Shown here: piece after piece, positions 6,067-38,673 of the stretch
Layout of the letters: the number at the start of each line of letters is the position of its first letter
Position numbering within the stretch: position 1 is the stretch's first letter
Origin: an uncultured Flavobacteriales bacterium
Lineage (GTDB): Bacteria; Bacteroidota; Bacteroidia; Flavobacteriales_G; Salibacteraceae
Reading direction: 5' to 3'
Length of the DNA stretch: 64,000 nt
Assembly: GCA_943788775.1 (NCBI GenBank)
Contig: CALSRO010000008.1
Location: forward strand, 1 to 64,000
Made by a program: the position numbers and the translations under genes
Notes under the pieces: generated by a model
What the model was told of the DNA's origin: nothing
The model's input: the letters and a program-made list of their open reading frames with translations, nothing else
Databases searched by the model: none

Positions 6067-6180
6067 ATGGTCTTTGATTCCAATAAGATTAACGATCATT
6101 GCAAAAACACCTATTCAGAAGAAGTGGTTATGAACCAACTAAGTGCTTACCCTATAGAGAGTTTCGGTCTTGATTTCTAA
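6067..6180 (+). CDS. 37-residue ORF with strong ribosome site, overlapping the next gene
   Basis: An ATG at 6067 follows an AAGGAGGT ribosome site with four-base spacing, which is unusual for this locus. The 37-codon frame has no recognised domain and is rich in Asn, Ser and Tyr. Its stop overlaps the TTG at 6170 that may start the sulfotransferase, so it could be a leader peptide for translational coupling or the truncated start of a lost gene. No similarity is claimed. Confidence 0.35.
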   Translation: MVFDSNKINDHCKNTYSEEVVMNQLSAYPIESFGLDF

Positions 6181-6994
6181 GTTCCTTCTGAAAATACCGA
6201 ATCTCAGAAAGATAAAACCTTTGCTTCAATTTGAAGTGGATAGGCACATGGCACCTTCATTTTTCATTGTTGGTTTTCAGAAGTGTGGTACATCCTCCTT
6301 GTATGACCTTATTACATCGCACCCCAATGTGAAAAAAGGACTGGTTAAGGAGAATAACATCTTAGCAGAAAGATCAGATAGGATAGATGAATTTCGCTTG
6401 TGTTTTCCTATTAATCGTAAAGGAAAGATCACGGGTGACGCCAGTCATTTACACACTTGGATGCCATATGGATTAGAGCGAATTAAGGAACACTTCCCGA
6501 GCGCAAAAATTATTGTCATCATGCGCAATCCAATTGATCGTGCATTTTCACATTTTAATATGGATCAAAGAATAGGGTATTTACCCGAATCCCTGACTTT
6601 TGGTCAATTGATTGATATTGAATTAAGGCTTAGAGATGGCTTGACGATCGAATCATCTGCAGAAGACACGTACACATCACTTAGGTTGTACGGAAATAAA
6701 TATGGCTGGCCATTGTCTAGAGGCCTGTATCACGTTTATATTCAACGCTTAAATGATCTCGGTATGGATTTTCTTCCATTATTCATGGAAGATTTGGAAA
6801 GCGACTATGCGGATACAATGAACCGCGTATTTAACTATCTAGAAATTACTCCTTTAGAACTTTCACCCAAACAAAGTAATAAAGGAGTTTACAAGTCCAA
6901 CCTAGACCCGAAGATCAGAAAACAGTTGGAGGACTTTTACGAGCTACCGAATCAAAAACTCGCAGCGTTGCTTCAGCGAAGCTTACCTTGGTAG
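6170..6994 (+). CDS. PAPS-dependent sulfotransferase
   Basis: This is a 274-residue P-loop sulfotransferase. The 5'-phosphosulfate loop is GFQKCGTSSLY (residues 35-45) and the 3'-phosphate site is IVIMRNPIDRAFSHF. The family transfers sulfate from PAPS to hydroxyls or amines of sugars, so the polysaccharide made by this locus is probably sulfated. The TTG at 6170 overlaps the small upstream ORF. An ATG at 6248 (residue 27) is an alternative start and would still leave both motifs intact. The next gene, an asparagine synthetase, starts three bases after the stop. The sugar acceptor cannot be told from sequence. Confidence 0.85.
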   Translation: MISKFLLKIPNLRKIKPLLQFEVDRHMAPSFFIVGFQKCGTSSLYDLITSHPNVKKGLVKENNILAERSDRIDEFRLCFPINRKGKITGDASHLHTWMPYGLERIKEHFPSAKIIVIMRNPIDRAFSHFNMDQRIGYLPESLTFGQLIDIELRLRDGLTIESSAEDTYTSLRLYGNKYGWPLSRGLYHVYIQRLNDLGMDFLPLFMEDLESDYADTMNRVFNYLEITPLELSPKQSNKGVYKSNLDPKIRKQLEDFYELPNQKLAALLQRSLPW

Positions 6995-6997
6995 ATC

Positions 6998-8866
6998 ATG
7001 TGTGGGATTACAGGCATATGGCACCTTAGTGGCAATCCGGTCGAGAAAGACAAGATTCAACGTTTTAATGATAGCCTTAAACACCGAGGTCCAGACGGGT
7101 TTGGAACGAGTTTTCATTTGAACGGGGCATTGGCACTAGGCCACAGACGGCTTTCGATTTTAGACCTTAGCGATGCTGGAAAGCAACCCATGCCTTATGC
7201 TGACGGTCAACTGACTATAACATTTAATGGAGAAGTATTCAATTATGTTGAGTTAAGAAAGGAGTTGGTATCCTTTGGTTATACATTTAAATCATACACG
7301 GATACCGAGATAGTATTGGCAGCCTATCATAGATGGGGAAAGGAGTGTTTGAATAGATTCAATGGAATGTGGGCCTTCGCGATCTGGGACAATCGTAAAA
7401 GCGAACTTTTTTTGGCCAGAGATAGATTCGGTATAAAGCCACTTTACTACACATTTTTACCAAACAAGATGTTCGCGTTCGCAAGTGAAACATTTGCGTT
7501 TAAGTTTTTAGAAGGATATAGAAGACGAATAAATGAACGACATTATAGTCTTGCGTGTGAAGATCCTTTGTTGCTTGAAGGCGAAGGAGTGACTGTTTTT
7601 GACGGTGTCAATCAGGTTCTTCCTGGACATTCGTTAACATTGAGCTTACCACTACAAATAATTCAAAAAAGATGGTGGAGTATTGAAGATCACTTGACCG
7701 ATACACCCGTATTGGATGTCAAATGGCAATCTGAGTATATCAAGGATTTATTGGTTGATTCTTGCAAATTGAGATTGCAAAGTGATGTCAAAATTGGCAC
7801 AGCTTTAAGCGGAGGTTTGGATTCGAGCATTATTTTGAGTGTTGTAAACGATTTACTTAATGGCGGTTCGGTTGAACGAATTAATCAAAGCAATCAGGAA
7901 GCCTTTACCATCACATTTCCTGGTTTGGAAAACGATGAAAGGGAGTTCGCTCAAAAGGCGTTTACCTACACATCTAATGCAAAACATCATTTGATTGAAG
8001 CGAATACCGAATCACTACCTAGCCAAATTTTAAATGATGCTCGCATTTCAGATTATGTTGGTAAATGGCCACTCACTTCGGCTTCACTCGTATACAAAAC
8101 GATGAAGCAATCGGGTGTTTCTGTCTCACTGGACGGACATGGAGTGGATGAGATGATGTATGGATATAAAAACATGGTTTCGAGTTTATTTTATGATGCG
8201 TTATATGATCCTAAAAAGAAACCAGAGAGATATAAAGAAGCTTTAATCGGATTCAGTGGCGATTCGGAAAGTGCAAGACGCATTGATCGAATGTTGCTTG
8301 AAAAAGAAGAGAGGGAGGGGAGTTTGATCTTTAAGGGTAAAAACATCCTAAGGAAATTTGTGACCAAGAAATATGTTGGCAAGCTTGAATTAGATAGACC
8401 GATATGTCAATCGTATAATTTTGACAGTTATCCGTTCGAAGAAAGGATGTTATATGTGGAATTTTTCAAAACAAAACTTCCAACGTTACTTCGGAACTTT
8501 GATCGAGCTAGCATGATAAATAGTGTTGAGGTGAGGATGCCTTTCTTAGATTGGAGGTTGGTCTGTTCAATATTTTCCTTGCCTTTGTCTTTTAAAATAA
8601 ATGAGGGATACACGAAGTACATTTTAAGAGAGTCCATGAAGGGCTCTATGAACGAGGAAATCAGATTGAGGAAAAGTAAGGTGGGAATTGTTTCACCAAT
8701 TCACCATTGGATTAATTCGGATTTGAATGAATGGTTTGTTGAATTAGTGGACGATAAAGGGTTAAAGAATGAAATGGAGAAACAAATCCAGTTTAATCGT
8801 CCCTTTTCAGCGGATATTATTGAACGAGCTTGGAAAAATGTGAATAGAACTATACTTGAAGAATAA
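6998..8866 (+). CDS. asnB: Asparagine synthetase B-like amidotransferase
   Basis: This 622-residue protein has the two AsnB domains. The N-terminal class II glutaminase begins MCGITGIW, with the Cys2 nucleophile after Met removal, and includes LKHRGPDG and GHRRLSI. The synthetase domain carries the PP-loop SGGLDSS at about residue 271. The family moves ammonia from glutamine to an adenylated carboxylate. In polysaccharide clusters such enzymes are thought to amidate uronic acids or other sugar acids. It is tightly linked to a flavodoxin-like gene, an enolase-superfamily gene and an ATP-grasp gene, which hints at a dedicated pathway rather than free asparagine synthesis. A second AsnB with different sequence lies at 36808, so the two may act on different residues. 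Confidence 0.88.
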   Translation: MCGITGIWHLSGNPVEKDKIQRFNDSLKHRGPDGFGTSFHLNGALALGHRRLSILDLSDAGKQPMPYADGQLTITFNGEVFNYVELRKELVSFGYTFKSYTDTEIVLAAYHRWGKECLNRFNGMWAFAIWDNRKSELFLARDRFGIKPLYYTFLPNKMFAFASETFAFKFLEGYRRRINERHYSLACEDPLLLEGEGVTVFDGVNQVLPGHSLTLSLPLQIIQKRWWSIEDHLTDTPVLDVKWQSEYIKDLLVDSCKLRLQSDVKIGTALSGGLDSSIILSVVNDLLNGGSVERINQSNQEAFTITFPGLENDEREFAQKAFTYTSNAKHHLIEANTESLPSQILNDARISDYVGKWPLTSASLVYKTMKQSGVSVSLDGHGVDEMMYGYKNMVSSLFYDALYDPKKKPERYKEALIGFSGDSESARRIDRMLLEKEEREGSLIFKGKNILRKFVTKKYVGKLELDRPICQSYNFDSYPFEERMLYVEFFKTKLPTLLRNFDRASMINSVEVRMPFLDWRLVCSIFSLPLSFKINEGYTKYILRESMKGSMNEEIRLRKSKVGIVSPIHHWINSDLNEWFVELVDDKGLKNEMEKQIQFNRPFSADIIERAWKNVNRTILEE

Positions 8867-8874
8867 TTAGAATT

Positions 8875-10380
8875 ATGGGTAAACCGCTAATATTAGGAGT
8901 GTCAGCCAGTTTAAGAAATGCGAGACGAGGGCTCGGTAATATTTCGCTGATAGATGAGATTAAAAATCTAAAGTCAAAGGAGGACCTTATGATTTTTCTC
9001 AAGCAGGAGGCTGAAGTGCACCTTAAAAACTTTCAAGAGTCAGGTAGATCTGACAGTCTACCGTTTGATATAATGTATGCTAACCTTAAAAAGTTGAAAG
9101 GTAATAAAGGTTTGAGCAATTCAGAAGTTGCCTTATCGTCAGCGTTATGGTCTGCGCATAGTCTAGGTTGTGAAATTGATCATTTGTCACTAGCGGAATT
9201 CTATTCTGAATCAGGAGTACAAAACGAAGATCAAATTCTAGCAAAGCTTAAGAAAGCAGATGCATTATTAATCTCTACACCAGTGTATTTTGGTGATCGA
9301 AGTTCTCTCGGGCAAACATTCATTGAATCCATTCGCAAAAATCCAGATTGGAAAAAGGCTGTAGAAGGTAAACTATACGCTGGATTGGCAGTAGGTGCCA
9401 AAAGAAATGGTGGCCAAGAAACAACACTGATTTATCAGATTTTAGATATGTTAAATGTGGATATGTTATGTGTTGGTAATGATAGTGAAACCACATCCCA
9501 ATATGGAGGAACTGGATTAGCTGGAGATATTGGTGCCATGCCATCTGATGAGTATGGATTAGCTACAACAATGGGTACTGGGAGACGCATATCTCGGGTA
9601 GCACAAGCATTGAAAATAGGAGAAGGTTATGAACTTAAGGGCAAGTTAAAAGTCCAATTTTGGATACTACAGGATTCTGAAGGATTTGCTTTGAAAAAGA
9701 TTCAGAGCTTGATTGCTGGGAAAAACATCGATGCTGACATTGTTGATTTAACAACCAAAACAATACATAGGTGTCTAGCTTGCGATATATGCCCCACGCA
9801 CGTAAGCACTGATGATGAATATAGATGCATTATAAAAAGCAAGAAAGATGATTTAAAGGAAATTCATCCTTCATTCTTAGATGCAGATGGAGTGATCCCC
9901 GTGATTTACTCGAAAAAAGATGCACATTCAACTCAAAGCAATTATCAGAAGTTTTTAGAGCGCACCAGGTATCTCAGAAGAGGTGATTATTTACTTAGTA
10001 ATACGCTTTCAGCTCCAATTGTTTTTGAAGAAATTGGGGCTCATGAGAATATGCATATCCGAGCAGTAACTTCTATGATTCGGCATCATACCGTTTTGTC
10101 AAAACCATTAGTTGGAATTATTCAGAATGACCAATTATTAAATGAGGATGAAATAATTGATTGCTTTGACCTTTTATTACAGTCATGTGAAAGATTAATG
10201 AAAGGAAAGTTAGCCATGTATTCCCAAGACCAAGATCATTTGAAATACAAGCCAATAGGATATGTTTTAAGCACCGTTAAGGATAAGGAGGATGAGAAAC
10301 TATCTAGAAGGGAAGCAATGATGGAAGAACGATATCGAAGGAATGAAAAGAAGCTTTCTGAAAAAATTGAAAAAACATAA
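8875..10380 (+). CDS. Tandem flavodoxin-like / FMN-reductase protein with Cys cluster
   Basis: This 501-residue protein appears to contain two flavodoxin-fold domains. The first (1-240) starts with an FMN-loop-like ILGVSASLRNAR and has STPVYFGDRSSLG. The second starts near residue 255 and holds a C-x2-C-x2-C-x11-C cluster (CLACDICP to RC). That cluster resembles iron-sulfur flavoproteins such as Isf, although their last spacing is shorter. The family is the NADPH-dependent FMN reductase superfamily, soluble electron-transfer enzymes. A redox flavoprotein is unexpected inside a polysaccharide operon. It sits nine bases after asnB and nine bases before the enolase-superfamily gene, suggesting a shared pathway. 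The true redox partner and the presence of a cluster are inference. Confidence 0.72.
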   Translation: MGKPLILGVSASLRNARRGLGNISLIDEIKNLKSKEDLMIFLKQEAEVHLKNFQESGRSDSLPFDIMYANLKKLKGNKGLSNSEVALSSALWSAHSLGCEIDHLSLAEFYSESGVQNEDQILAKLKKADALLISTPVYFGDRSSLGQTFIESIRKNPDWKKAVEGKLYAGLAVGAKRNGGQETTLIYQILDMLNVDMLCVGNDSETTSQYGGTGLAGDIGAMPSDEYGLATTMGTGRRISRVAQALKIGEGYELKGKLKVQFWILQDSEGFALKKIQSLIAGKNIDADIVDLTTKTIHRCLACDICPTHVSTDDEYRCIIKSKKDDLKEIHPSFLDADGVIPVIYSKKDAHSTQSNYQKFLERTRYLRRGDYLLSNTLSAPIVFEEIGAHENMHIRAVTSMIRHHTVLSKPLVGIIQNDQLLNEDEIIDCFDLLLQSCERLMKGKLAMYSQDQDHLKYKPIGYVLSTVKDKEDEKLSRREAMMEERYRRNEKKLSEKIEKT

Positions 10381-10388
10381 CTCGATCT

Positions 10389-11354
10389 ATGAGTAATATC
10401 AGCTCGGTCACTGTCGATGAGCGTTCCTATCCTCTCAGTAAACCATATAAACTTTCTTTCGTTACCCTGCGCGAGTTTCAAACAATTCGGGTAACCATTT
10501 CATTAAAAAATGGTGAGTCGAGAGTAGCTGAAGTGGTTCCTCTTGAGGTATACTCGGATGAATCCTATGTGAACGTTCTTTCTAGATTAAAAGAACAGGC
10601 AAGAAATATAGTTGGTTTGAGTTTAGAAGTGGCGAGAAAAGAGACATTGTGCTCTTTCAAAGATAAACCGTTTTCAGCTACAGGAATTTTAACAGCGATT
10701 GATTTATTTAATTTTCAACCCATTGCAAAAATCGAGGCAGACAATCTTCACACATTAATCCCTTTTTCAACAAGTCAACTTTTGAGGAATGAAATAAAGC
10801 AAGATTGGTTCAGCCATGGCAAAACGTATAAATTAAAATTGTCAGGTGATTTGAGCGAAGATCAAAGATCCCTTGCGAAGCTTAATTTTCTCACTAATAT
10901 TGATTGTTCTATCCGTGTAGATGCGAATCAAGCATACAAATTTGACCAAGCGCGATTGCTTTTAGAGGATTTTCAAAAAAACATAGCGGGAACTAAAGTG
11001 GAATATCTTGAACAGCTCCTTGATTCAGATGATTGGGATGGACAAAAGGAATTGGTGTCTATTTTTCCAAAAACTGAATTCATGTTAGATGAGCCAATTG
11101 TCGATTTTGCTTCAATTGACAAGGCTAGGTCCATCGGTGTGAATTACGTGAAGTTAAAATTATATAAGCAAGGTGGAATTATTGAACTTATTGCACATGC
11201 TGAATATGCGAATCAAAATGGGCTGAAGGTGATATTGGGCAATGGGGTAGCCACATGGCCGAGTAACCAAGTAGAACTTTCCGTTTATGCAGAAAATAGA
11301 AGTTGGTTTAGTGGAGTCCATGAAGCAAATGGCTATAAAAAAGTTCTTGCGTGA
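10389..11354 (+). CDS. Enolase-superfamily enzyme, MLE / dipeptide-epimerase-like
   Basis: This 321-residue protein has the catalytic set of the muconate-lactonizing subgroup. There is a K-x-K pair at K148/K150, metal ligands D178 (RVDAN), E208 (EYLEQ) and D234 (MLDEP), and the opposing K257 (KLKLYKQGG). This two-lysine arrangement is used by dipeptide epimerases, o-succinylbenzoate synthase and N-acylamino-acid racemase to abstract a proton alpha to a carboxylate. No menaquinone genes are nearby, so an OSBS role is unlikely. The ATP-grasp ligase that follows overlaps it by four bases and the two are probably co-translated. An epimerase acting on an amino-acid or lactyl-type substituent destined for the glycan is a reasonable inference. 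Confidence 0.82.
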   Translation: MSNISSVTVDERSYPLSKPYKLSFVTLREFQTIRVTISLKNGESRVAEVVPLEVYSDESYVNVLSRLKEQARNIVGLSLEVARKETLCSFKDKPFSATGILTAIDLFNFQPIAKIEADNLHTLIPFSTSQLLRNEIKQDWFSHGKTYKLKLSGDLSEDQRSLAKLNFLTNIDCSIRVDANQAYKFDQARLLLEDFQKNIAGTKVEYLEQLLDSDDWDGQKELVSIFPKTEFMLDEPIVDFASIDKARSIGVNYVKLKLYKQGGIIELIAHAEYANQNGLKVILGNGVATWPSNQVELSVYAENRSWFSGVHEANGYKKVLA

Positions 11355-12547
11355 AGTCGGTTTTAATCCTTAATGGTTATACTAGAAACTCCTTAGCAAT
11401 TACGCGAAGCTTGGGAAAGCTGAATTTTAAAGTTGATCTTTTTTCGAAAAAAGAGTATTCATCCAAAGAGGATCGATTCAATCGAAAATTTGCGTCAAAA
11501 TTTGTGAATAATGTCTTTTTATTCGCCAAGGATAAAAAACTCGAGACACTCATTGATACCCTTCAAAAAGGAAATTATGATTACCTGTTTGCTGGAGGTA
11601 CTGCGGATTCTTTGTTTATTTCAGAGAATAAGGAACTTCTAGGAAAATATGTCAAGGTTGTTGCTGAAGACTTTGATAAAATGCTTCGTGTACATGATAA
11701 AACTATCTCGAATAGTGAATTAAGGTCGATCGGCATTCCAGTGCCAGAAACGTTTGAAGTTAAGTCACTGCAAAGTCTTAAAACGGAATTACCTCCATTC
11801 AATCCACCCTATATATTAAAGTTTTCAGATTCCTATGCCTCGAAAGGTCTTGAGGTTTTTGATGGACATAAAGCTGACTTGTATTCACATTTTTTGAATA
11901 ATTATCAAGAACAATACCTACCAATAATTCAGCAAAAAATTGAAGGGGATTTATTTGATTCAACCTGCTTTGCTGTCAATGGCGAACCAATGGGGATTCT
12001 TTGTCAAAAAAGAATTTTGACGGCTTGGATAAATGGGGGAGGTGGAATCATTAACCGAACCATTTCAAGTCCAGAAATAAGGAGGTATACGGAGCAGATT
12101 CTAAAACATTATAATTGGAATGGCCACCTTGAAATAGATTGGATACACAATAAAATGGAAAATACTTTTTATTTCTTGGAAATGAATCCGAAATATTGGG
12201 GTACGACACAACTCACTATCGATGCGGGATACAATTTTCCTTTTTGGTCAACCAAACTTCTTGATGGTTCGGATATAGAGAAGTGTGAAGAATATAAAAT
12301 TGGAATAACCTATCGTTGGGTAGATGATGAATTGGCGACACTTATTTGGAATAGGTATGGAGTAATAAAAGGTTTGAAATTTTGGACTTTGTTTTTTCTT
12401 CGATTTCTTAATCCGAAAATCCATACGAATATGTATCTGTTTAGCGATCCCAGACCATTTATTGGTCTTTTGACGAAAATGGCGATGCGAATTTTTAACG
12501 ACAAAAAGAAAAAAATAGCCCTACTGTTAAAAACGAAAAATGTATAG
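11351..12547 (+). CDS. ATP-grasp ligase
   Basis: This 398-residue protein is an ATP-grasp enzyme. The N-terminal fold starts VLILNGYTRNSLAITRSL. A lysine in PYILKFSDSYASKG and the segment QQKIEGDLFD fit the nucleotide-binding part. The metal-binding end motif is FLEMNPKYWGT. ATP-grasp ligases activate a carboxylate as acyl-phosphate and join it to an amine or thiol. Members near sugar-nucleotide genes are often unassigned carboxylate-amine ligases. The start GTG overlaps the enolase-superfamily gene by four bases and the end overlaps the deacetylase gene by eight, a clear sign of translational coupling. The substrate cannot be predicted; an amino acid added to an amino- or carboxy-sugar is one possibility. 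Confidence 0.85.
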   Translation: MKSVLILNGYTRNSLAITRSLGKLNFKVDLFSKKEYSSKEDRFNRKFASKFVNNVFLFAKDKKLETLIDTLQKGNYDYLFAGGTADSLFISENKELLGKYVKVVAEDFDKMLRVHDKTISNSELRSIGIPVPETFEVKSLQSLKTELPPFNPPYILKFSDSYASKGLEVFDGHKADLYSHFLNNYQEQYLPIIQQKIEGDLFDSTCFAVNGEPMGILCQKRILTAWINGGGGIINRTISSPEIRRYTEQILKHYNWNGHLEIDWIHNKMENTFYFLEMNPKYWGTTQLTIDAGYNFPFWSTKLLDGSDIEKCEEYKIGITYRWVDDELATLIWNRYGVIKGLKFWTLFFLRFLNPKIHTNMYLFSDPRPFIGLLTKMAMRIFNDKKKKIALLLKTKNV

Positions 12548-13601
12548 CAACGAGTTTTTATGGCAAGTATTTAGTCTTTCGGCTGAAATGGATCCGCTTT
12601 TCAGAGATAAACATGATCGCTTTCCAATCTCGCAAGCTATTCATAATGTGACGGAACCTATCGTAAGTGAAAGGCTTCTGGAATTAGGTTGGAGGCCCAC
12701 TTACCCGAATAACGCTCCTTATGCAGTCGTAATATCACATGATATTGATTTTATATATAAGCGAACAGAAGCTCAACAGCTCTCTGGGGCTCTGAAAGAT
12801 TTGTTAAAATTTACACTGAAAGGAAAGATTCCTACAATCTCGTCTTTTAGTTCAAGTCTTAAAAGCCAATGCGAGTTGAAATGGCCAGTTGAAACTGTTT
12901 TCGATTGTTTGAAAGCAAAAAACATTCCCTCAACCTATTATTTTATGTGCCTAGAGAAAGGGGATGAAGATTATAATTATAATTTTTCTGAATTATATAG
13001 CATTGTCAACAAACTAATCGAAAGTGGAAGCGAGGTTGGACTGCATGGTGGTCACACAGCATATAAATCTCTTGTAGCTATGCAATCTCAGCTTCATGAG
13101 CTTCAGCGAAATATTGGATTGAAAAGAGTTGGTTATAGAAATCATTTTTTAAAGTTTAATCTGAAATCCTTCGAATTGATGGAGTCTACCGGGTTTAGGA
13201 CTGACTCAACATTAGGATTTGCCGAGACAACAGGGTTTAGAAATGGGATGTCACATCCATTTAGGCCTTACAATCACCAAAATGATTCATACTTCAGATT
13301 GGTTGAAATTCCTTTGATCATGATGGATCAGACGTTGTATAAATACATGAATTTGTCTTCTGCAGAAACATTGGATGTGGCCAAGAAGATGATTGAAAAG
13401 GTGGCTAAGGTTTCTGGGGTGTTTACCCTGCTGTGGCACAACACAAATTTTAACGGAAGAAAACTAGAGGATTTTGAACAGATAGTGGATTCGATGAATT
13501 CTGATAAGGCATGGTTTTGCACCGCCAATGAGCTAGTAGATTGGTATGAAAAGAACGATTTTTTTAGGACGCAGACTGACTTATTGAACTCTTTGCGATG
13601 A
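12540..13601 (+). CDS. NodB-like polysaccharide deacetylase family protein
   Basis: This 353-residue protein shows the divergent NodB pattern. It has VVISHDIDF (motif 1 Asp pair), GSEVGLHGGHTAY (motif 2 metal His region), VGYRNHFLKF (motif 3 Arg) and FTLLWHNTNF near the C-terminus (motif 5 His). The family removes N-acetyl groups from polysaccharides or their precursors in a metal-dependent way. No signal peptide is seen, so it probably acts in the cytoplasm on a precursor. It overlaps the preceding ATP-grasp gene and the following glycosyltransferase gene. A free amine exposed by this enzyme could be the acceptor for the ATP-grasp ligase or the formyltransferase at 22345; that link is inference. 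Confidence 0.8.
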   Translation: MYSNEFLWQVFSLSAEMDPLFRDKHDRFPISQAIHNVTEPIVSERLLELGWRPTYPNNAPYAVVISHDIDFIYKRTEAQQLSGALKDLLKFTLKGKIPTISSFSSSLKSQCELKWPVETVFDCLKAKNIPSTYYFMCLEKGDEDYNYNFSELYSIVNKLIESGSEVGLHGGHTAYKSLVAMQSQLHELQRNIGLKRVGYRNHFLKFNLKSFELMESTGFRTDSTLGFAETTGFRNGMSHPFRPYNHQNDSYFRLVEIPLIMMDQTLYKYMNLSSAETLDVAKKMIEKVAKVSGVFTLLWHNTNFNGRKLEDFEQIVDSMNSDKAWFCTANELVDWYEKNDFFRTQTDLLNSLR

Positions 13602-14779
13602 AAGTTCTATTTATATATCCAGATGTTTCTAAATCTCTGGGTGTTCTTTCCAAGATTGAATCAAAGTTGAATGCAATTTTGGAGCAGCCATATACCATAC
13701 AAATCGAGGCAATCTTTTTTGGAAATAAGATTGATACAAAGGCCTATTCTGGTTTGAATTGTAGGGTTTCATTTGTTCGAATAGAAATAGGGTCATCTGA
13801 ATCTATGCTCTTGAATCAAAAAATATTCTGGTCTATAAAGTACGAGAATGAGCTTAGACGGAAATTTGATACACTGACTCATGCCATTGAGAAAATAGAC
13901 GCAGACTTTCTGATTATGCGCGATTTTGCGATGTCAAAATCTGGGGTTGCCTTTTTAAAAAGGTGTCGGTCGAAGTTTAAAGTAGTGCTGGAAAGTAACA
14001 CTAATATTTCTTCAGAATTGAAAATGAAGGCGAACAAGCATGGTGTTTGGTACATTATGGAAGCTCGAAAGGAGCTTCAATACCGAAGGAAGAGTTTAAA
14101 GTTTGTAAATGGCATCATCGCAGTTACTGTTGAGCTTGAAGATTTATATCTGGCATTGGGTTTTGATAAGCAGAAAATTCGCGTCATTACGAATGGAGTC
14201 AAAGTGAAAAAGATCACGGACCTGCGGGATAGGTGGAATCCAAACGAAGCCCTGCGATGCGTTTTTCTCGCGGGTACCTTCAGTGAATGGAACGGAATAG
14301 ATCGGTTAGAAAATAGCTTGAAAAGTTATCGTGGAAAAACTAAGCTAATAGTTGATGTTTATGGTATAAGTTCAGAAAGATTAGATGGTCCAAATTTTGA
14401 ATTAAACTTTATTGATCGCTTAAATCCACAAGACATTTCGACTAGATTATCTGACTATCACATAGGGATTTCAACTTTAGCGCTCTACAAAAAGAATATG
14501 GAAGAAGCATGCACACTGAAGGTGCGAGAATATTTGGCGAGTGGTTTACCCGTATTACTCGCATATAACGATACCGATCTTGAAGAAGAATCCTGTTTTA
14601 TATTCCGCGTGAAGAATAATGATAGTCGAATAGATTTTGAGAATGTTGTAGAATGGTACTGCAATTTGGCTGATACGGTCGCTATTCCCCAAATAACGAA
14701 TGAATTCGCATTGCGAAAACTAACGTATCAACAAAAATCTATGGAAATTTGCAAATTTCTATGCACAATTTCAGATTAG
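13598..14779 (+). CDS. Glycosyltransferase, GT-B fold (GT4-like)
   Basis: This 393-residue protein has the GT-B layout. The N-terminal Rossmann-like half starts MKVLFIYPDVS. The linker shows IRVITNGVKV. The C-terminal nucleotide-sugar half has FLAGTFSEWNGIDRL and a degenerate E-x7-E region around the segment CTLKVREYLASGLPVLL. The motif set is weaker than in its neighbours. The enzymes transfer sugars from nucleotide donors to the growing lipid-linked chain on the cytoplasmic side. The ATG overlaps the stop of the deacetylase gene. Donor and acceptor are unknown. Confidence 0.8.
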   Translation: MKVLFIYPDVSKSLGVLSKIESKLNAILEQPYTIQIEAIFFGNKIDTKAYSGLNCRVSFVRIEIGSSESMLLNQKIFWSIKYENELRRKFDTLTHAIEKIDADFLIMRDFAMSKSGVAFLKRCRSKFKVVLESNTNISSELKMKANKHGVWYIMEARKELQYRRKSLKFVNGIIAVTVELEDLYLALGFDKQKIRVITNGVKVKKITDLRDRWNPNEALRCVFLAGTFSEWNGIDRLENSLKSYRGKTKLIVDVYGISSERLDGPNFELNFIDRLNPQDISTRLSDYHIGISTLALYKKNMEEACTLKVREYLASGLPVLLAYNDTDLEEESCFIFRVKNNDSRIDFENVVEWYCNLADTVAIPQITNEFALRKLTYQQKSMEICKFLCTISD

Positions 14780-36807: not shown

Positions 36808-38673
36808 ATGTGTGGAATTGCAGGCATATATGGTACCGAGAAAATGGTTGATTCCAATGCGATCATTGCTGCAATGACTGATTCGATGAATCATCGAGGA
36901 CCAGATGCAGAAGGACACTTTACTGATGAAAACCTTGTACTTGGACATAGACGTCTATCCATAATTGATTTAAACGAAAAATCAAATCAGCCATTTCATT
37001 CTAACAATGGTCGTTACACTCTGGTTTTCAACGGAGAAATTTATAACTATCGAGAACTTAAGGAGTCCTTGACTGATTATTCATTTACAACCGACTCGGA
37101 CACCGAGGTGTTTGTGGCGGCCTTCGAGAAGTGGGGCACCAAAGCCTTCCAACTCTTCAATGGAATGTTTGCCGCAGCTATTTGGGATAGATTGGACCGG
37201 AATTTATATCTGGTCAGAGACAGGGTGGGTATTAAACCCTTGTATTATTATCAATCAGAAACTTCCATATTCTTCGCCTCCGAGCTTAGATCGCTTTTAG
37301 CAAGTGGAATGGTGCCACGTAAACTCAATATTTCCTCACTACCAGAATACTTCCAATACCAGTGCGTGCATGCTCCTAGAACGATGGTACGTGATGTTCG
37401 ACAACTAGAAACTGGATCATATCTGAAAATCGGTGACAATACGATGGCTAAAGTCGAGTATTGGAAGCCATGGCAAAACAAACACGATGATCGTGATATG
37501 ATCGTGATTCAGAAGAATATTCGAGAACGATTAACTAAGGCTGTAGAACGAAGACTGATAGCTGATGTGCCTGTAGGTGCTTTTTTATCTGGCGGGATTG
37601 ATTCAAGCCTTATTGTGGGTATCGTAGCTGAGCGTTTAAATAAAAAACTAGATACGTTTAATGTTGCCTTTGACGATAGTGAATTTAGCGAGGCTCAATA
37701 TGCCAATCTAGTTGCGAAACGCTTTGGCTCTAATCACCATGAAATACTACTGAATCCATTGGACTTTTTGGCTTCGCTGCCATCTGCGTTGAAATCAATG
37801 GATCATCCATCCGGTGATGGTCCTAACTCTTGGATCGTGTCGCGTGAAACAAAAAATCAGGGAATCACTGTAGCGTTGTCAGGTTTAGGTGGAGATGAAG
37901 TTTTTGCCGGTTATGATGTGTTTAGTCAAATCCCCAAAATATCGGAAAGGGGCTGGCTACTGAGCTTTCCAAAGTTTCTACGATCCTTGATGGGGACAGG
38001 ACTTTTGGCTAAAAGCCCTGGAATGAAAAGCGCTAAAACGAAGGAAGTCTTAATCTCTGATTATTTCGATTTAGAACACTTATATCCGATTTTTCGAAAA
38101 GTACTTCTGGATAATCAGATTAAAAACCTGTTGCCAAATGCAATGTATGGTAATTCTGTCCAAGGCATTATTCATGATCTAGATCAGTATGTTGAGTTCC
38201 AGAGACTACCCGTGTTAAGCCGAATAGGCATTGCCGAAATGTCAACTTATATGCAAAATGTATTGCTAAGGGATACTGACCAAATGTCGATGGCGCATTC
38301 ATTAGAAGTAAGAGTCCCCTTTTTAGACCATGAATTGATCGAATATGCCATGCATATTCCCGATTATGTCAAATTTCCTCATTCCCCGAAGAAATTACTG
38401 GTTGAAAGCTTCAAGGATCTCATTCCAACTGAGGTTTCCGATAGAAAGAAAATGGGTTTTGTTCTGCCATGGGAAAAATGGATGCGAGCAGATTTGAAGC
38501 AGTTCTGTGAAGAACGACTTACAATAGTTAAGGCCATGCCTAATATGAATGAGAAGTATTTGGACCAAATGTGGGAGGCCTTTCTAAAGGAAGATCCAAT
38601 GTTTACCTGGTCTAGGATTTGGCCAATAGTAGTTCTTGGTGATTGGATAATTGAAAACGAAATTGAGGCCTAA
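36808..38673 (+). CDS. asnB: Asparagine synthetase B-like amidotransferase (second copy)
   Basis: This 621-residue AsnB-family enzyme starts MCGIAGIYG and carries MNHRGPDAEG, GHRRLSIIDL, the PP-loop SGGIDSS at about residue 261, and VALSGLGGDEVFAGYD. It is closer to the canonical exopolysaccharide AsnB than the copy at 6998, whose middle region differs. The family transfers glutamine-derived ammonia to an activated carboxylate; in polysaccharide loci the likely target is a uronic or nonulosonic acid carboxylate. The start follows the glycosyltransferase stop by one base and the end overlaps the next gene by 23 bases. Confidence 0.92.
   Translation: MCGIAGIYGTEKMVDSNAIIAAMTDSMNHRGPDAEGHFTDENLVLGHRRLSIIDLNEKSNQPFHSNNGRYTLVFNGEIYNYRELKESLTDYSFTTDSDTEVFVAAFEKWGTKAFQLFNGMFAAAIWDRLDRNLYLVRDRVGIKPLYYYQSETSIFFASELRSLLASGMVPRKLNISSLPEYFQYQCVHAPRTMVRDVRQLETGSYLKIGDNTMAKVEYWKPWQNKHDDRDMIVIQKNIRERLTKAVERRLIADVPVGAFLSGGIDSSLIVGIVAERLNKKLDTFNVAFDDSEFSEAQYANLVAKRFGSNHHEILLNPLDFLASLPSALKSMDHPSGDGPNSWIVSRETKNQGITVALSGLGGDEVFAGYDVFSQIPKISERGWLLSFPKFLRSLMGTGLLAKSPGMKSAKTKEVLISDYFDLEHLYPIFRKVLLDNQIKNLLPNAMYGNSVQGIIHDLDQYVEFQRLPVLSRIGIAEMSTYMQNVLLRDTDQMSMAHSLEVRVPFLDHELIEYAMHIPDYVKFPHSPKKLLVESFKDLIPTEVSDRKKMGFVLPWEKWMRADLKQFCEERLTIVKAMPNMNEKYLDQMWEAFLKEDPMFTWSRIWPIVVLGDWIIENEIEA

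Follow-up and report, generated by a model that had tools for sequence, protein, structure and literature searches.

A conserved flavoprotein, enolase, ATP-grasp ligase, and deacetylase gene core in bacterial glycan loci, a possible N-acyl exchange cassette

Introduction

Unusual N-acyl groups help decide how surface glycans are recognized by phages, hosts, and predators, and the enzymes involved are largely unassigned. In Porphyromonas gingivalis, the Wbp/Vim pathway makes a 2-N-seryl, 3-N-acetylglucuronamide linking sugar; VimE is the proposed deacetylase, VimA (FemAB/GNAT-like) adds serine or glycine, and WbpS (AsnB-like) forms the uronamide (PMC7468200). A designed penicillin route relies on both an ATP-grasp ligase and an enolase-family epimerase (PMC13338154). 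By analogy, the Wbp/Vim linking-sugar pathway appears to be the closest known logic to the locus analyzed here, with which it would share a deacetylase, the re-acylation of a freed amine, and AsnB-type amidation of a uronic acid. The locus differs in that an ATP-grasp candidate replaces VimA and in that an enolase-superfamily enzyme and a tandem flavoprotein are added. A literature search for this gene combination found no described pathway. The initial annotation of the locus, made from the sequence alone, had likewise stated that it knew of no named pathway for these genes, thereby overlooking the Wbp/Vim pathway with its AsnB-like amidotransferase, deacetylase, and amine-acylating enzyme (PMC7468200).

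Gene content of the locus

The window, which is the whole stretch of 64,000 nucleotides that was analyzed, is part of a 3.1-Mb Bacteroidota genome. All five ORFs at positions 6998 to 13601 are real and intact, and they are separated by 8, 8, -4, and -8 bases, which bears out the short gaps and overlaps reported initially; the gap of nine bases given there is the offset from the last base of one gene to the first base of the next. The run is longer than five genes, extending from 6170 to 14779, and comprises the following:

6170..6994, + strand, sulfotransferase (Sulfotransfer_1, E 1.6e-13), 3 bases upstream of the AsnB gene
6998..8866, + strand, AsnB-type glutamine amidotransferase (Pfam Asn_synthase, E 4.2e-53; GATase_7)
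8875..10380, + strand, tandem flavoprotein (FMN_red, E 9.1e-14)
10389..11354, + strand, enolase-superfamily (muconate lactonizing subgroup) isomerase/epimerase of a distinct subfamily (MR_MLE_C, E 2.6e-13)
11351..12547, + strand, ATP-grasp carboxylate-amine ligase (ATP-grasp_3, E 1e-5; ATPgrasp_Ter, E 1.3e-6)
12540..13601, + strand, VimE-like (CE4-type) N-deacetylase (NCBIfam NF053580 VimE, E 4.6e-25, below cut-off)
13598..14779, + strand, glycosyltransferase (Glyco_transf_4, E 8.9e-6, just under cut-off), overlapping the deacetylase gene by 4 bases

The family assignments made at the outset hold for AsnB, the FMN_red domain, the enolase superfamily, ATP-grasp, and the VimE-like deacetylase, with "dipeptide epimerase" being too specific. 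Comparison with locus L014, from a metagenome-assembled genome (MAG) labeled "uncultured Flavobacteriales," shows saturated synonymous sites (pS, 0.77 to 0.83) in the five genes and nonsynonymous differences of 0.11 to 0.33, with the flavoprotein having the lowest value. The intact catalytic motifs, together with nonsynonymous divergence far below the saturated synonymous divergence, indicate that the five genes are functional.

Conservation of a four-gene core

Among 42 genomes of the order, including the genome of the window, the flavoprotein, enolase, and ATP-grasp subfamilies are found together in the four genomes that have complete loci (the window, L014, L020, and L021). The subfamilies are sharply delimited in this sample, with scores of 502 to 588 bits in core carriers versus 90 bits for the next match for the enolase and 680 to 706 bits versus 81 bits for the ATP-grasp enzyme. 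The flavoprotein occurs in five of the 42 genomes, one of which (G402) is cut by a contig end, the end of its flavoprotein lying at the contig edge with a deacetylase close by. In all four complete loci, the three co-occurring genes are adjacent and a VimE-like deacetylase is present. The window and L014 share the order sulfotransferase, AsnB, flavoprotein, enolase, ATP-grasp, deacetylase, and glycosyltransferase. In L020, the order is ATP-grasp, enolase, flavoprotein, FemAB-like protein, deacetylase, and PIG-L, and in L021, it is sulfotransferase, ATP-grasp, enolase, flavoprotein, deacetylase, and glycosyltransferase. The core loci are set among glycosyltransferase, flippase, and deacetylase genes. 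The sulfotransferase, next to the cassette in L014 and L021 as well, is a frequent partner, and a homolog of the glycosyltransferase occupies the same place in L014.

The conserved core consists of the flavoprotein, the enolase, the ATP-grasp ligase, and the deacetylase, and its physical linkage and co-occurrence can be taken as established. The recurrence of the core in four loci with rearranged gene order carries the original five-gene observation beyond chance. Furthermore, the set stays together despite the reversed order and despite identities between the pairs that fall to 26 to 29% for the enolase and 37 to 39% for the ATP-grasp enzyme, which strongly indicates a shared pathway. The five genes were initially said to act together, a view that scattering of the genes in related loci was to overturn. 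For the four-gene core, found together in four of the 42 genomes and adjacent in every complete locus, this view stands; it does not extend to AsnB, which is missing beside the core in L020 and L021.

The ATP-grasp ligase and the proposed cassette

In the ATP-grasp enzyme, K157 and E277-x-N279 are invariant in the core, corresponding to the ATP-binding lysine and the Glu/Asn metal site. A sequence search of the PDB gave no match, and a search with its profile gave weak matches only. In the phylogenetic tree, the core forms a clade (support, 100/100) among deacetylase-linked relatives, and the best relatives elsewhere in the phylum lie beside a VimE-like deacetylase in glycan loci L086, L087, L088, L091, and L092. 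A PHP phosphoesterase gene adjoins the ATP-grasp gene in L086, L087, L088, and L091, which come from four genomes of different genera, and a HAD phosphatase gene adjoins it in L092, with another one near L139. The core, these five loci, and four more rows make up a 13-row tree group with moderate support (83/90), and a polysaccharide deacetylase of the VimE-like or DUF3473 kind lies close to the ATP-grasp gene in all 13 rows. In a separate clade (100/100), the ATP-grasp gene follows those for ComA (E-values of 2.5e-74, 5.7e-78, and 3.2e-74 in L126, L132, and L145, respectively) and a histidine phosphatase:

L126:5276-10594, ComA, histidine phosphatase, and ATP-grasp cassette
L132:6885-10647, ComA, histidine phosphatase, and ATP-grasp cassette
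L145:7264-9736, ComA, histidine phosphatase, and ATP-grasp cassette

These loci resemble that of the window in placing a related ATP-grasp gene in a glycan locus, two of the three also having a VimE-like deacetylase, but they carry supplier genes that would make sulfolactate and neither the enolase nor the flavoprotein. ComA is phosphosulfolactate synthase, which makes phosphosulfolactate. The acid ligated in the ComA loci would thus be sulfolactate after dephosphorylation, which predicts sulfolactyl amides on sugars, and in the PHP loci, it is possibly glycerate or another dephosphorylated acid.

The four-gene core may therefore act as a cassette for N-acyl exchange on a surface glycan, a reading to which we assign a probability of roughly 50%. 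All of its reactions, their order, and the nature of the sugar and the acid are those that we infer. The VimE-like deacetylase would remove the N-acetyl group from an amino sugar to leave a free amine, and the ATP-grasp enzyme would activate a carboxylic acid with ATP and couple it to this amine through an amide bond. The acid would be made or tailored by the enolase, through proton abstraction next to the carboxylate (epimerization, dehydration, or cycloisomerization), and by the FMN/Fe-S tandem flavoprotein, through a two-electron reduction or oxidation; these roles are suggested because the two enzymes occupy the slot held by candidate small-acid suppliers beside the ligase in the loci of the relatives. 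Where present (the window and L014), AsnB may amidate a uronic acid within that glycan, and the sulfotransferase may often add sulfate. The initial proposal of an amide-linked substituent on an amino sugar of the glycan fits this comparative evidence, in which ATP-grasp relatives lie beside deacetylases and acid-supplying enzymes. Against the N-acyl exchange reading, the link between ATP-grasp and acid suppliers was seen on inspection of neighborhoods, without a formal background rate; several relatives have no recognized supplier, and some more distant ones have no deacetylase neighbor. In addition, a FemAB/VimA-like gene in L020 could perform the acyl transfer, and a metal-binding histidine is absent from several deacetylase homologs, as described below.

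On a broader and more tentative reading, the core would install an undescribed amide-linked acyl group via a new enolase subfamily and a Cys-cluster tandem flavoprotein, as one instance of a Bacteroidota plug-in design in which a deacetylase and an ATP-grasp ligase are combined with an exchangeable acid module (PHP, HAD, ComA-phosphatase, or enolase-flavoprotein). If the cassette reading is true, both an uncharacterized enolase subfamily and an unusual flavoprotein gain a role, and the combination of deacetylase, ATP-grasp, and supplier genes becomes a simple rule by which amide substituents, among them the sulfolactyl amides of the ComA loci, can be predicted from sequence.

The tandem flavoprotein

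The first domain of the flavoprotein (residues about 1 to 250) is WrbA-like and of the FMN type. The second half contains C300-x2-C303-x2-C306-x11-C318, which confirms the cluster noted initially, and its cysteines are invariant in four homologs; the homologs in L014, L020, and L021 are 83, 57, and 57% identical, respectively. Of the tandem flavodoxin described in the initial annotation, the FMN_red domain is confirmed, and the second flavodoxin-like domain, which Pfam does not detect, rests on the sequence pattern and a low-confidence model (pLDDT, 57.7). A Foldseek search with this poor model returned WrbA, ArsH, SsuE, and flavodoxins among chance matches, which is merely consistent with flavodoxin-like domains. 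The Cys motif probably forms an Fe-S cluster. The protein shares an FMN_red domain and a Cys cluster with the WrbA/iron-sulfur flavoprotein (Isf) group but differs in having two fused domains and a last Cys spacing of 11, which falls outside the Isf pattern, C-x2-C-x2-C-x(4-7)-C. The flavoprotein family is rare; besides the genome of the window, the 396 phylum genomes and the 395 class genomes searched yielded at most weak WrbA-type matches, and no true relative was found outside the order among these genomes, plasmids, and viral contigs. A search of genome contigs matched one MAG, through the same contig as in G421.

The enolase subfamily

The enolase residues K148-x-K150, D178, E208, D234, and K257 are invariant in the four core sequences, which thus contain the K-x-K motif, the Asp/Glu/Asp metal ligands, and the second catalytic lysine of dipeptide epimerases. 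The model (pLDDT, 86) has its best fold match in the l-Ala-d/l-Glu epimerase 1jpm (TMq, 0.83), and the top profile match is 2p88. The fold and these residues are common to the dipeptide epimerases 1jpm, 3jva, and 3q45, whereas the core enolases have a short C-terminus, near which E-x-N-G is present in all four, compared with a D-x-D-G type in 18 comparators from the phylum. The C-terminal Asp-x-Asp of dipeptide epimerases binds the dipeptide ammonium group. In the tree, the core forms its own clade (100/99), apart from the D-x-D clade and a MenC-like clade, with long joining branches that make the depth uncertain. The two-lysine set described initially is confirmed, with both lysines and the metal ligands invariant; the dipeptide epimerase label attached to it was rejected as a firm assignment because the D-x-D motif is missing and the clade is separate. 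The o-succinylbenzoate synthase MenC and the N-succinyl-Arg/Lys racemase 2p88 belong to the same subgroup and have the same catalytic set as the core enolase, but the core is a separate clade. MenC was also rejected, since the core lies outside the MenC-like clade and the genome of the window has a separate MenC-like gene that adjoins one resembling MenE (L153). Given the E-x-N-G motif, the clade of its own, and the separate MenC-like gene, the core enolase probably acts neither on a standard dipeptide nor on the substrate of MenC.

These features bear on a dipeptide route, in which the ATP-grasp enzyme would join one amino acid to another or to a different acid, the enolase would epimerize the product, and the peptide would decorate the glycan. 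The closest fold being that of 1jpm and the presence of both catalytic lysines favor such a route, and an ATP-grasp ligase and an enolase-family epimerase work together in the designed penicillin route (PMC13338154). It is nevertheless unlikely, as the E-x-N motif and the separate clade set the core apart from the 18 dipeptide-epimerase-like comparators and the route leaves the flavoprotein unexplained.

The deacetylase and the Wbp/Vim pathway

The deacetylase scores 88 bits against the VimE model NF053580 (cut-off, 440 bits) and has no match in Pfam or in a PDB profile search. Its HD-x-D, GLH, RNH, and WHN motifs are conserved in the core; with respect to the CE4 motifs, HD-x-D and the first histidine of motif 2 are invariant, and the second, metal-binding histidine of motif 2 is absent in several homologs. 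The VimA (FemAB)-like gene of L020 (L020:9545-10492; TIGR03019, E 9.5e-8) lies between the flavoprotein and deacetylase genes, and no such gene was seen beside the core in the window, L014, or L021. Another, separately placed VimE homolog is present in all five carrier genomes; in L129, L130, and L131, its neighbor is a VimA-like gene, near what we take, from the sequence, to be radC. The separate homolog of the window's own genome (L131:7973-9240) is split over three ORFs, reflecting a pseudogene or an assembly error.

The module could instead belong to the Wbp/Vim pathway as a branch producing the sugar through which type IX secretion cargo is attached to the cell surface. The VimE-like deacetylase, an AsnB-like enzyme comparable to WbpS, the FemAB/VimA-like gene of L020, and type IX sorting domains encoded in or near the core loci are in line with this explanation. 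It is quite improbable, however, and a type IX linking-sugar locus was disfavored because all five genomes have a second VimE homolog, placed beside a VimA-like gene in three loci; moreover, the module is confined to four of the 42 genomes, and no wbp genes (wbpA/B/D/E) were recognized among the core-locus neighbors scanned.

AsnB and neighboring glycan genes

AsnB has the MCGI start and the SGGLDS motif and scores 319 bits against TIGR03108 (eps_aminotran_1; cut-off, 817 bits). The L014 copy is 72% identical, and in the distant locus L086, an AsnB gene (304 bits) adjoins the deacetylase gene. The AsnB of the window is likely a uronic-acid-amidating enzyme that forms a uronamide. It was rejected as a core member and is an accessory, since of the four loci, the window and L014 have it, whereas L020 and L021 lack it beside the core. 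A second AsnB gene in the window (36808-38673) scores 431 bits against eps_aminotran_1, compared with 319 bits for the copy at 6998-8866.

A small diffusible metabolite in place of a glycan substituent, for instance an osmolyte of the amidated acyl dipeptide kind such as N-acetylglutaminylglutamine amide (NAGGN), would accord with the presence of an ATP-grasp enzyme and with a sub-cut-off AsnB score of 271 bits against TIGR03104, the model for the NAGGN amidotransferase (cut-off, 570 bits). Such a product is highly improbable, as AsnB does not accompany the core throughout and the loci are surrounded by genes for glycosyltransferases, flippases, and deacetylases. It is just as improbable that unrelated genes travel together only through transfer of a variable glycan locus, which the mosaic nature of glycan loci and the patchy presence of the set would allow but which was already disfavored by a core that stays adjacent despite reversed order between pairs and enolase identities of 26 to 29%.

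The window carries further glycan genes. A 753-amino-acid protein (window:3632-5893) fuses CBS, NeuB, SAF, and sugar-isomerase-like TIM barrel domains, and a PseF-PseG-like fusion is followed by a second NeuB-like synthase (window:17057-19730). The presence of nonulosonic acid genes near the cassette is a possible hint at the target sugar. A DltB-like membrane O-acyltransferase is also encoded among the glycan genes (window:28170-29573).
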